Positions 34,133 to 38,481 of a stretch of DNA of 64,000 nucleotides are shown piece after piece. A program made the position numbers and the translations under genes. Numbering within the stretch: the stretch's first letter is position 1; every line of letters starts with the position of its first letter. Location of the stretch: NCBI RefSeq assembly GCF_000016545.1, contig NC_009437.1:2123394-2187393 (forward strand), written 5' to 3'. The notes beneath the pieces were generated by a model that saw only the letters and a program-made list of their open reading frames with translations, did not search any database and was not told the origin of the DNA. The stretch comes from Caldicellulosiruptor saccharolyticus DSM 8903. GTDB lineage: Bacteria; Bacillota; Thermoanaerobacteria; Caldicellulosiruptorales; Caldicellulosiruptoraceae.

Positions 34133-34161
34133 AATATATCACAGATTTTTTGACTTTTCAA
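34133..34161 (-). promoter_or_regulatory. Promoter of the 6S-like RNA
   Basis: On the minus strand TTGAAA (34156-34161) and TATATT (34133-34138) are spaced by exactly 17 bases. Transcription should begin near 34126, just before the closing stem. The promoter overlaps the last codons of the upstream activase gene. Confidence 0.75.
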
Positions 34162-35134
34162 CATGGTGATTTTTGCAATTTGAATATTTCTGGCACCTGT
34201 CACCCCACGTAGCAACCAACTTATTGTTGTTGTAAAATTCTACTACTTCACAGTTATTAGAACACTCTTTACATTCAAATCCCCTTGCCTCAAACTTGCT
34301 ATTGTTGATACAATTAAACCCTTTAAAACTGCTGACAAGCCCTCTGGTCTTCTCCCTTGCCAAAAGTGCTATCCCTATGGCACCCATCACATTGAAATAT
34401 TTTGGGACAATAACTTCTTTTTGTAATACCTGTTCAAATGCCTTTTTCATTGCAATGTTTGCAGCAACTCCACCTTGAAATATAATAGGTTCTTCAATTG
34501 TTTTACCTTTTGCAACATTTGAGACATAATTTCTTGCAAGTGCTAAACAAAGTCCAAAAAGGATGTCTTCGGGAAGATGCCCAAGCTGCTGTTTGTGGAT
34601 CATATCAGACTCTGCAAACACAGCACATCTTCCTGCAATTCTCACAGGATTTTTAGATCTTATAGCTATCTCTCCCATCTTTTCAATTGGAATGTTTAAC
34701 CTTTCTGCTTGCCTGTCCAAAAATGAACCTGTCCCTGCAGCACAGATAGTGTTCATTGCAAAGTCAACTACAATTCCGTTTTTTATTAAAATTATTTTTG
34801 AGTCCTGTCCACCTATCTCAATCACTGTTCTCACATTTGGAATAAAGTGAATTGCTGCCTTTGCATGTGCTGTAATCTCATTTTTTACAGTATCTGCTCC
34901 AACCATTATTGCAGCAAGATTACGACCAGACCCTGTTGTCCCAACCCCTGAGATTTTTAACCTCGCACCAAACTTTTGATAAAGCTGTACAAGCACTTTT
35001 TGCAAAACCTCGATTGGTCTACCTTCTGTTCTTACATATATACTTTCTACAATGTTGTTATTTTCATCAAGCAATACCACATTTGTACTAACAGAGCCTA
35101 TATCAATTCCAAGAAAGCAGTTTAGTTTGTCCAC
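34139..35134 (-). CDS. 2-hydroxyacyl-CoA dehydratase activase-like ATPase (BadF/BcrA family)
   Basis: A 331-residue ASKHA-fold ATPase of the family that injects an electron into 2-hydroxyacyl-CoA dehydratases or benzoyl-CoA reductases. LGIDIGSVSTN (about 7-17) is the phosphate loop, IEIGGQDSK and NTICAAGTGSFLDRQ carry the cluster-binding motifs, and FQGGVAANIAM is present. An extra C-terminal tail has five cysteines in CKECSNNC, GDRC and YSNC, unlike the basic activase. The start is GTG at 35134 (AAGGAG at eight bases). It overlaps the upstream gene by 32 bases. The substrate is unknown. Confidence 0.88.
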   Translation of the reverse strand: MDKLNCFLGIDIGSVSTNVVLLDENNNIVESIYVRTEGRPIEVLQKVLVQLYQKFGARLKISGVGTTGSGRNLAAIMVGADTVKNEITAHAKAAIHFIPNVRTVIEIGGQDSKIILIKNGIVVDFAMNTICAAGTGSFLDRQAERLNIPIEKMGEIAIRSKNPVRIAGRCAVFAESDMIHKQQLGHLPEDILFGLCLALARNYVSNVAKGKTIEEPIIFQGGVAANIAMKKAFEQVLQKEVIVPKYFNVMGAIGIALLAREKTRGLVSSFKGFNCINNSKFEARGFECKECSNNCEVVEFYNNNKLVATWGDRCQKYSNCKNHHVEKSKNL

Positions 35135-36197
35135 TTTTATCACTCCTTGACTCGATTAAATCTAAAAAGGCCTCTAAACGCGTTTTTAGCCCCACATCAC
35201 CTTCCATTTCATCTACCACAATGTGCAATAGAGGCACTCTAAGTTCATTTCTGAGATTAGCCAATACAGACTTTGCTATTATCTCTGGCATACACGTGAG
35301 AGGAAAGACATGAACCACACCTGCAAAATGTTTACTTTCAAACCATTTCGTGTAGGCAATTGTCTCTCTTGCGTGACCACCAATTAGATTTTCCATTATG
35401 TCTTTTGAATATCTTTTTACAACTGGGTCTTTTTTTCTCAGCAATGGATATATCAAATGATTGTCGATCCAGTATGAAATATATAGATTTCTCTCCACCT
35501 CATATCCCATGTCTCCTATTATCTTTTCAATATTGAGATTTGCAAAGTCATCTATAATGGTATATATCTCACCTACAATTCCAATCTTTTTTACATTTTC
35601 ATCCACTACATACACATTATCTAAAAGTACATTAGTTGTTTCTATTAACTTTTTCATTTGCTCAATGCCCTTTGTTTTCAAAGCTTCAATTCTAAATCGA
35701 TTATATATCTTATCAACATTTCCTTTTACCATTTCCCTGGGTCTTAGAAAATGCACTCTTTTTTCAATCCTGTCAATCATCTTTGCCAAACTATAGATTT
35801 TAGGCAAAATACCAATTAAGTTTTTCTTGGCAAAGACCTTCCCTGCTTCAGATAAAAAATTTTTAACTCCATAATGAAGTGGTTCAATTACAATCATCTG
35901 AACGTCAAATCCAGCGTCTTTTAAGATCTCTTTTTGAAGTGCACCATAGTATCCAAACCTGCACGGTCCACATCCACCAAACATCACAATTGTATCAGCC
36001 CCCATTTCAATTGCCTGAACAAAGTTTCCTACGTTGAGCTTAAACGGCATACATATAAACTCAGGTGAGTAGTTTTTACCAATCTCCAAAGTCTTTCTGT
36101 TATTCGGTGGTGGGACAATGACTTCAAATCCAAGTTCTTCAAAAAGTGGTTTTGCAACCATGTAGAGATTACCCATGTGCGGAAATGTAATTTTCAT
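35103..36197 (-). CDS. 2-hydroxyacyl-CoA dehydratase-like subunit (DUF2229/HgdB-type), activase partner
   Basis: 364 residues, starting MKITFPHMGNLYM. Conserved cysteines appear in FICMPFKLNVG and in GGCGPCRFGYYG, as in the cluster-binding subunits of the dehydratase/CoA-reductase superfamily. The C-terminal VFPLTCMPEIIAK and VDEMEGDVGLKTRLEAFLD repeat the arrangement of the next gene. The ATG at 36197 has GGAGGG six bases upstream. In many Firmicutes these parts are fused with the activase into one protein of more than 1000 residues; here they are separate genes with 29- and 32-base overlaps. Confidence 0.82.
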   Translation of the reverse strand: MKITFPHMGNLYMVAKPLFEELGFEVIVPPPNNRKTLEIGKNYSPEFICMPFKLNVGNFVQAIEMGADTIVMFGGCGPCRFGYYGALQKEILKDAGFDVQMIVIEPLHYGVKNFLSEAGKVFAKKNLIGILPKIYSLAKMIDRIEKRVHFLRPREMVKGNVDKIYNRFRIEALKTKGIEQMKKLIETTNVLLDNVYVVDENVKKIGIVGEIYTIIDDFANLNIEKIIGDMGYEVERNLYISYWIDNHLIYPLLRKKDPVVKRYSKDIMENLIGGHARETIAYTKWFESKHFAGVVHVFPLTCMPEIIAKSVLANLRNELRVPLLHIVVDEMEGDVGLKTRLEAFLDLIESRSDKSGQTKLLSWN

Positions 36198-37101
36198 TTT
36201 CTTCCCTCCATCCAATCATATCAATAAAAGCTTCTATTCTTGTCTGAATTCCGAGGTTGGCAGAATGTTCATCTAAAGTAATACAAAGATAAGGCAAATT
36301 TAATATCTTGCATCTTCTTCTAATTAGTTCTTCTAAAATGGAATCTATTCCACAACCAAACGTCATTAGATATACAATTCCGTCAAGTTTTAAATTTTTC
36401 TGAGTCCAGTAAAAATATTCATAAATGTTTTGAGCAGTTGACCAAAAGAAAGGTTTTTGTAACTCAACTGTAATCTCTTTGTCTGAAATGTGATGGTATA
36501 AAGGATAGATTGGATTATAGCCACTATCCTTTATAATTTGCAGAATTCCTTTATTGAGATTATTGTCAAAGATGACATAACTGTGCCCCAAGACTAAAAT
36601 ATTCTTTTTGTCTTTTGCAATTGGCGGCAAATATTCAAAAAACTTGCTATTAGCAAAGCCTTCTACAATCTTTTTCAATCGTCTTTTATCATTTGTGAAA
36701 TGTTTGCCAAATTCGACTAAAAAATCATTTACATAAGACGTCCCATTTCTTAAGTTCAGCTCTGGTGAAATTATCCTCATGTGAGCATAATGTGTTTTTA
36801 CTAAGTCAGGAATTCCAATAATTTTAGGACATGAATAAGTTCTATACCGAAGTGAGGTCAGCCTTGGCAGTAAAATAGCATCAACTTTTTTGTATTTTAC
36901 TAAGTATTCAATGTGACCCATGAATACCTTTGCGGGCATACAAATCTCTTCTATGCTATTTTGTACTCCAAACTCTACCATCTCGTTTGTTGTAGGTCCA
37001 GAGAAGATTACTTCTGACTCATCTGATATTTCTGAGAGGAAATTAGCCAAAAATTTTTCCATTCCTATATAACAAAAGCTATTTGGAATTCCTACTTTCA
37101 T
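36169..37101 (-). CDS. 2-hydroxyacyl-CoA dehydratase-like protein (DUF2229 type)
   Basis: 310 residues, starting MKVGIPNSFCYIGMEKF. Conserved elements are EEICMPAKVFMGH, RYRTYSCPKIIGIPDL, MTFGCGIDSILEEL and LDEHSANLGIQTRIEAFID. They match the DUF2229 part of large activase fusions; the Cys residues probably bind an iron-sulfur cluster. AGGAGG lies nine bases before the ATG. It is the first gene of the three-gene operon, overlapping the second by 29 bases. The reaction is not known for this family. Confidence 0.82.
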   Translation of the reverse strand: MKVGIPNSFCYIGMEKFLANFLSEISDESEVIFSGPTTNEMVEFGVQNSIEEICMPAKVFMGHIEYLVKYKKVDAILLPRLTSLRYRTYSCPKIIGIPDLVKTHYAHMRIISPELNLRNGTSYVNDFLVEFGKHFTNDKRRLKKIVEGFANSKFFEYLPPIAKDKKNILVLGHSYVIFDNNLNKGILQIIKDSGYNPIYPLYHHISDKEITVELQKPFFWSTAQNIYEYFYWTQKNLKLDGIVYLMTFGCGIDSILEELIRRRCKILNLPYLCITLDEHSANLGIQTRIEAFIDMIGWREENENYISAHG

Positions 37102-37268: not shown

Positions 37269-37925
37269 TCAAACATTTAGAATTATGTCATTAGACAACC
37301 TCTTGTAAAAGTCGCATACATTGTTTATAATGCATTCACTACACTTAGGTTTTCTTGCTTTACATGTAGCCCTTCCATGATAAACCATGAGATTGCTAAA
37401 TGTAGTGTACATGTCAAAAGGAACTATTTTTCTCAGTTCAAACTCTATCTTGTCAGGGTCTTTGCTTTTCACAAAACCAATTCTGTTTGAAAGTCTCATA
37501 CAATGTGTGTCAACTATTATGGAAGGTACTCCAAAGATGTTTGCCATTATGACATTTGCTGTTTTTCTACCCACACCTTTCAGCTTTGTTAACGCTTCAA
37601 TGCTATCTGGCAAAGCACCATTGTACTTATCAATGAGAATCTTTGCTGTTTCTTTTATGCTCTTTGCTTTGTTTTTATAAAATCCAACAGGTTTTATGTC
37701 TCTTTCCAACTCTTCCAAATTAGCATTTGCAAAGTGCTCAAGAGTAGGATACTTTTTGAAAAGCTTAGTTGTTATCTTATTTACACGTTCATCAGTACTC
37801 TGTGCTGCTAAAATTGTTGCTATTAAAAGCTCATATGGTTTATTATAATCTAAGGTACACTTTGGCTCTGGGTAGATCTCTAAAAGTTTTTCTATTACGT
37901 ATATTGCCTTTTGTGTTTTTGTAAT
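37269..37925 (-). CDS. nth: Endonuclease III, with apparent ATT start codon
   Basis: DNA glycosylase/AP lyase for oxidised pyrimidines. The helix-hairpin-helix has LKGVGRKTANV with the catalytic Lys, and the catalytic Asp is in IIVDTHC. The [4Fe-4S] loop Cys-x6-Cys-x2-Cys-x5-Cys starts at CKARKPKC. Conserved family sequence continues upstream of the first ATG (37718) through ELLIATILAAQSTDERV to ITKTQKAIYV. No ATG, GTG or TTG exists in frame before that; a TGA lies three codons upstream. GGGAG is nine bases before an ATT at 37925, giving 218 aa, a normal Nth length. A sequencing frameshift near 37930 is the alternative. Confidence 0.85.
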   Translation of the reverse strand: MTKTQKAIYVIEKLLEIYPEPKCTLDYNKPYELLIATILAAQSTDERVNKITTKLFKKYPTLEHFANANLEELERDIKPVGFYKNKAKSIKETAKILIDKYNGALPDSIEALTKLKGVGRKTANVIMANIFGVPSIIVDTHCMRLSNRIGFVKSKDPDKIEFELRKIVPFDMYTTFSNLMVYHGRATCKARKPKCSECIINNVCDFYKRLSNDIILNV

Positions 37926-37992
37926 TTTTGGTCACTCCCTATTTGTTTTTTAGATATTTTTAAAAATGACCAAAAAAGGAGGAGGTTTAAAG

Positions 37993-38481
37993 ATGATTAT
38001 TAGGAAGGCCACAATCTCTGACATACCACAAATTTTATCAATTTATAACTACGAAGTTTTAAACTCATCCTCAACATTTGATACCCGACCAAAGTCTACC
38101 GAGGATTTTTTAAAGTTATTTGATATGCACAGTTATAAATACCCAATTTACGTAGTTGAAGATGGTACGAACTCAATAATTGGCTATGGTTATCTTTCGC
38201 CTTTTTCTGATAAAGAAGGATACTCTATTACTGTGGAAGATTCTATATATATTCATCACCTTCACAGAGGCAAAGGTATTGGCAAAATGCTTTTAAAATT
38301 TTTGATCCAAAAGGCCAGAGAAAAAGGATTTAAAAATATAATTGCTAAAATTTGTGCTGAAAATCAACCAAGCCTTAACTTGCACAAATCCTTAGGATTT
38401 GTTGAGGTTGGGAAACTATATAGTGTAGGTTATAAATTTAACAGATATTTAGATGTTATCATTTTGCAACTAAATCTCTGA
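37993..38481 (+). CDS. GNAT acetyltransferase, phosphinothricin acetyltransferase-like
   Basis: 162-residue N-acetyltransferase. It starts MIIRKATISDIPQI, and carries the acetyl-CoA loop HRGKGIGKMLL (about 92-102) and NQPSLNLHKSLGFVEVGK, which is the Pat/MddA-type pattern of amino-acid or amino-acid-analogue acetylation. AGGAGG precedes the ATG at 37993. The plus-strand gene stands alone in a minus-strand region, and its 3' end overlaps murJ by 23 bases. The true substrate is unknown. Confidence 0.85.
   Translation: MIIRKATISDIPQILSIYNYEVLNSSSTFDTRPKSTEDFLKLFDMHSYKYPIYVVEDGTNSIIGYGYLSPFSDKEGYSITVEDSIYIHHLHRGKGIGKMLLKFLIQKAREKGFKNIIAKICAENQPSLNLHKSLGFVEVGKLYSVGYKFNRYLDVIILQLNL

Follow-up and report, generated by a model that had tools for sequence, protein, structure and literature searches.

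The nth gene of Caldicellulosiruptor saccharolyticus DSM 8903 very probably starts at an ATT codon, as a sequence-only reading of this DNA had proposed. The assignment is supported by ATT at this position in all genomes of the genus, a Shine-Dalgarno (SD) site at the correct spacing, an upstream in-frame stop codon, purifying selection on the residues that follow and the lack of any conserved alternative start. As an explanation of the data as a whole, translation of an otherwise ordinary endonuclease III from an AUU codon is highly likely the best one.

The nth gene and its start region

The chromosome bearing nth is complete (2.97 Mb), and the gene lies on the minus strand of the window (the whole stretch of 64,000 nucleotides that was analyzed). 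The frame runs from 37931 to 37269 and is closed by a TGA at 37271 to 37269; counted from the ATT, the gene occupies 37925 to 37269 and codes for 218 amino acids. The protein matched the profile TIGR01083 with 255.5 bits, which is above the curated cut-off of 211.7 and makes it a member of the endonuclease III family. Since profile position 2 falls on residue 7 of the 220-residue frame, the length of the frame suits the family, in keeping with the earlier statement that a start at ATT gives the usual family length. In an alignment of eight sequences from genus members, K121 (in LKGVGRKTAN) and D139 (in VDTH), which from family knowledge we take to be the catalytic Lys and Asp of the HhH-GPD motif, were invariant, and so were C188, C195, C198 and C204 of the iron-sulfur loop, whose spacing (C-x6-C-x2-C-x5-C) is that of a 4Fe-4S site. 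By these features, nth is an ordinary endonuclease III gene apart from its start codon.

Upstream of nth lies a GNAT acetyltransferase gene on the plus strand (37993 to 38481), the ATG of which is 67 bp from the ATT of nth; in most of the other species, too, a similar divergent gene with a MNIRKATIS-like start was read on the 5' side of nth. Because this neighbor is divergent, nth is the first gene of its own transcript, which leaves no preceding gene to which its translation could be coupled. A promoter scan gave no significant site (4 found versus 3.9 expected). On the 3' side of nth, three genes on the minus strand (34139 to 37100 of the window) resemble, judged from their translations, an activator and subunits of the 2-hydroxyacyl-CoA dehydratase type.

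The minus-strand letters from 37940 read AGGGAG-TGA-CCA-AAA-ATT-ACA-AAA, with the ATT at 37923 to 37925. The SD site GGGAG (37939 to 37935) is separated from it by 9 nt, exactly as had been read before, and belongs to a conserved block, GGGAGTGA, at 37932 to 37939. The in-frame TGA (37934 to 37932) follows directly, and only CCA AAA stands between this stop and the ATT. No ATG, GTG or TTG was found in the nth frame from the TGA to codon 70. The first canonical codon is codon 70 (37718 to 37716); it is a TTG and not the ATG that had been described at 37718, but the prediction that its use would remove 69 residues was right. With the common 16S tail assumed, predicted SD duplex energies are -9 to -11 kcal/mol for the genus and -16.5 kcal/mol for the sister genus. 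The SD site of nth, GGAG plus TGA with a bulge in the duplex predicted with that tail, is thus moderate and unlike the extended SD sites reported for other non-canonical starts. No consistent or stable RNA structure was seen at the start of nth; folding energies were -0.3 to -6.3 kcal/mol for 70 nt, and the folds differed among species.

Conservation of the start codon and alternative starts

The sequence-only reading had suggested comparing the codon in related strains, where an ATG or GTG at this place would speak against ATT. The genus set comprised 12 separately assembled genomes, this one and 11 other species, and nth was present in all of them with a protein identity of 75 to 100% (75 to 97% in the others). 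In a gap-free alignment the codon at the start position was ATT in 12/12 genomes, and none had ATG, GTG or TTG there. GGAG preceded the ATT by 9 to 10 nt in every genome, which is a normal SD distance, as part of GGAGTGA followed by a spacer of 6 to 7 bases; GGGAGTGA was found in 11 of the 12 genomes (with A in place of the first G in one of them), and in the twelfth the block was AGGAGTGA, displaced by one base. Moreover, an in-frame stop codon (TGA; TAA in one species) is separated from the ATT by only 1 or 2 codons in all 12 genomes, and therefore, no in-frame start further upstream is possible. Each of the 12 genomes contained exactly one match to the pattern GGAG-N7..11-ATTACNAAR..., and GGAG-N7..11-ATTAC... 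matched neither the reversed control nor any of 25 other genomes from the class, a distribution that exceeds chance.

These data also bear on a sequencing or assembly error that deleted a canonical start, for instance, an indel that had kept the GTG at about 37935 out of frame, which the sequence-only reading had named as a possible refutation. Nothing in favor of such an error was found, and it is not credible since 12 separate assemblies, with proteins that are 75 to 97% identical, agree in the arrangement, and one species (L005/L029) has a spacer that is naturally one base longer; its probability is vanishingly small. Readthrough of the TGA was rejected as well: the stop codon stands directly behind the SD site, and one species has a TAA at a different codon.

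How much the invariance of the ATT itself tells can be judged from the 10 columns of nth that always hold Ile; in 4 of these, all 12 species use the same codon. Invariance alone is therefore weak evidence, and the case rests on its combination with the SD site, the stop codon and the missing alternatives. Among these alternatives are other near-cognate codons beside the ATT. ACG at -6 and AAG at -3 are at a feasible distance from the SD site in many species, but ACG is present in only 7/12 genomes and AAG in about two thirds, and ATA at codon 8 is present in 4/12. None of them is conserved throughout the genus, AAG is a very poor initiator codon, and a start at any of the three has only a slim chance. 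ATT is the only near-cognate codon conserved between the stop codon and codon 10, and its spacing from the one SD site that is conserved is correct.

A start at the GTG inside GGGAGTGA (37935) with a programmed frameshift into the nth frame would make use of a GTGA that is conserved in 12/12 genomes, and here the frame of the GTG runs for about 30 codons before it closes. However, this GTG overlaps the SD site and lacks an SD site of its own, and in 7/12 species its frame closes at a TAA after five codons (e.g., GTG AAC GAA GAT TAC TAA). In L005/L029, the longer spacer would call for a different shift, and the GTG frame stops at a TAG, its 14th codon. Because of this one species, a conserved frameshift from the GTG is ruled out, and we consider a start of this kind extremely improbable.

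Gene callers restricted to ATG, GTG and TTG would pick a downstream codon and thus a shorter Nth, starting at the TTG at 37718 here or at GTG codon 10 in some species; they should annotate nth 9 to 69 or more residues too short, depending on the species. Downstream canonical codons are, however, not shared: only 5 species have GTG at codon 10, some have TTG at codon 34 or 39, and two close relatives (L027 and L028) have no canonical codon within the first 70. Upstream of codon 70, no canonical codon is common to the genus. Furthermore, codons 2 to 69 are conserved as protein and include an invariant block, KPYELLIATILAAQSTDERVNK, which bears out the earlier statement that the 69 residues lost would include conserved ones. 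The fractions of variable sites at the three codon positions were 0.29, 0.09 and 0.71 in codons 2 to 69 and 0.31, 0.24 and 0.76 in codons 70 to 209, so that both parts show the same kind of constraint, with variable third positions and, from codon 2 onwards, second positions that hardly change. In codons 2 to 69, dN was 0.02 to 0.12 versus a dS of 0.19 to 1.2, with synonymous changes predominating from the first codons on. The low dN and the variation at third positions argue that the stretch from the ATT to the first canonical codon is translated and that its residues are under purifying selection. A truncated Nth is accordingly given very little probability.

Taken at the level of the genus, the comparison indicates that the AUU start of nth is fixed throughout. 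Since nth has no usable canonical start and a near-cognate codon that is conserved across species, it is on these sequence grounds a member of the class of conserved non-canonical starts, together with infC, pcnB and sigR.

Other non-canonical starts and possible consequences for nth

As a positive control we used infC. In 13/13 genomes of the family an ATA was found at its start (at about 1915040 of the chromosome in this genome), preceded at a distance of 9 nt by AGGAGGTG or a close variant of it, and ATA is most likely the start codon of infC in all 13. An alternative TTG five codons on (in the genus) was rejected since it is too far from the AGGAGGTG site. This result was expected because infC starts at AUA in Staphylococcus aureus (PMC13009471), at ATT in Escherichia coli and at ATC in Streptomyces (PMC5472188). 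nth and infC are alike in having a non-canonical start that differs from AUG at the third base, a normal SD spacing and conservation across species. They differ in that the product of infC is IF3, which regulates its own synthesis, whereas the product of nth is a repair enzyme, so that nth could be acted on by IF3 only passively.

In the mechanism that we propose, the GGGAG would position the 30S subunit at the AUU of nth, and fMet-tRNA would pair with this codon despite the mismatch at its third base. Both placement of the ribosome by an SD site and decoding of AUU by the initiator tRNA are established for other genes. Since IF3 rejects complexes on codons other than AUG, GUG and UUG, translation of nth would reach only a small part of the rate seen with AUG, and a shortage of IF3 would increase its output. 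infC of these genomes also has a non-canonical start (ATA), and therefore, IF3 would be expected to shift the output of nth and infC the same way. This would likely serve to hold a glycosylase/AP-lyase that would cause strand breaks in excess at a low dosage; harm from excess Nth is a general expectation for AP lyases.

Published cases allow a comparison. E. coli pcnB, with a single-gene AUU start like that of nth, is reportedly limited in its translation by this codon (Binns and Masters 2002); pcnB is another gene in another lineage, and the effect was measured there. In S. aureus reporters, cvfC1 (AUU) and ccpN (AUA) reach about 10% of the expression from AUG in poor medium, and like nth they are Bacillota genes with a non-canonical start that is conserved and recognized in an SD context (PMC13009471). 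However, their SD sites are strong and extended and their starts were proven by ribosome profiling, whereas the SD site of nth is moderate and predicted from sequence. Streptomyces sigR starts at GTC and is repressed by IF3 (PMC5472188). It resembles nth as a gene with a rare start, in this case a gene of the oxidative-stress response, but the codon is GTC and not ATT, and sigR is a regulator, whereas nth codes for a repair enzyme. A search of the available literature for an AUU start codon together with endonuclease III found no paper.

In view of these cases, the ATT start probably reduces the expression of nth. The earlier notion that it implies tight control is plausible because infC starts at ATA here and published AUU, AUA and GTC starts give low or IF3-sensitive expression. 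That IF3 control of nth is physiologically meaningful is rather doubtful. Still more speculative, and in our opinion unlikely, is that nth is coupled to the level of IF3 via its AUU in parallel to infC, so that a base-excision-repair enzyme tracks the state of the translation machinery, and that this arrangement was fixed in the family ancestor and retained to control dosage at high temperature. To our knowledge, conserved AUU starts outside infC are limited to a handful of bacterial genes; a genus-wide AUU in a DNA repair gene would offer a clean natural test between low dosage and IF3-responsive control.

nth outside the genus and candidate starts in other genes

The sister genus (G012, L038) likewise has ATT at the homologous position, behind GAGGTGATC, which matches the common 16S tail over 9 bases; in L038, GAGGTGATC is followed by two ATT codons in tandem, and a GTG in the same frame is present but lies within the SD site. 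This suggests, but does not settle, that the ATT start is used family-wide. Elsewhere in the class, nth started with TTG at 13 of the 17 loci read and ATG was rare; weak starts therefore seem to be habitual for nth in the class. The codon aligned with the ATT is commonly an Ile codon (ATA) there, two codons after the TTG start. This is a point against our assignment, since the Ile is internal in these other families and thus has an ancestry there that does not require initiation. The simplest history, as we infer it, would be the loss of a weak TTG start, the role of which then passed to the neighboring Ile codon. A contig scan of named genomes matched only distant relatives, mostly with ATG starts. 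A second, distant HhH-GPD paralogue (25 to 29% identical) started with ATG in the 12 genomes in which it was seen, and a non-canonical start is therefore not a habit of the whole superfamily.

As a negative control we used a MiaB-like gene that has an ATT behind a strong SD site (GGAGGTGA in the relative G011) in 7 species. The ATT stands six bases before a TTG, at a better SD spacing than the TTG itself, but it failed as a candidate: the codon conserved in the genus is the TTG, and the position of the ATT is occupied by TAT ACR in four other species and by GTC in one. A scan for further non-canonical starts covered 2.4 Mb of one relative (G011). It recovered infC and gave the MiaB-like gene as a candidate, which was then rejected by conservation; nth could not be flagged because of the filters and the GTG at codon 10 in this genome. 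On the reverse strand of G011, at about 1930083, the frame of a small membrane protein (LKWYKFLLLGIGIGWVLG...) may start at a CTG behind GGGAGGGAG.
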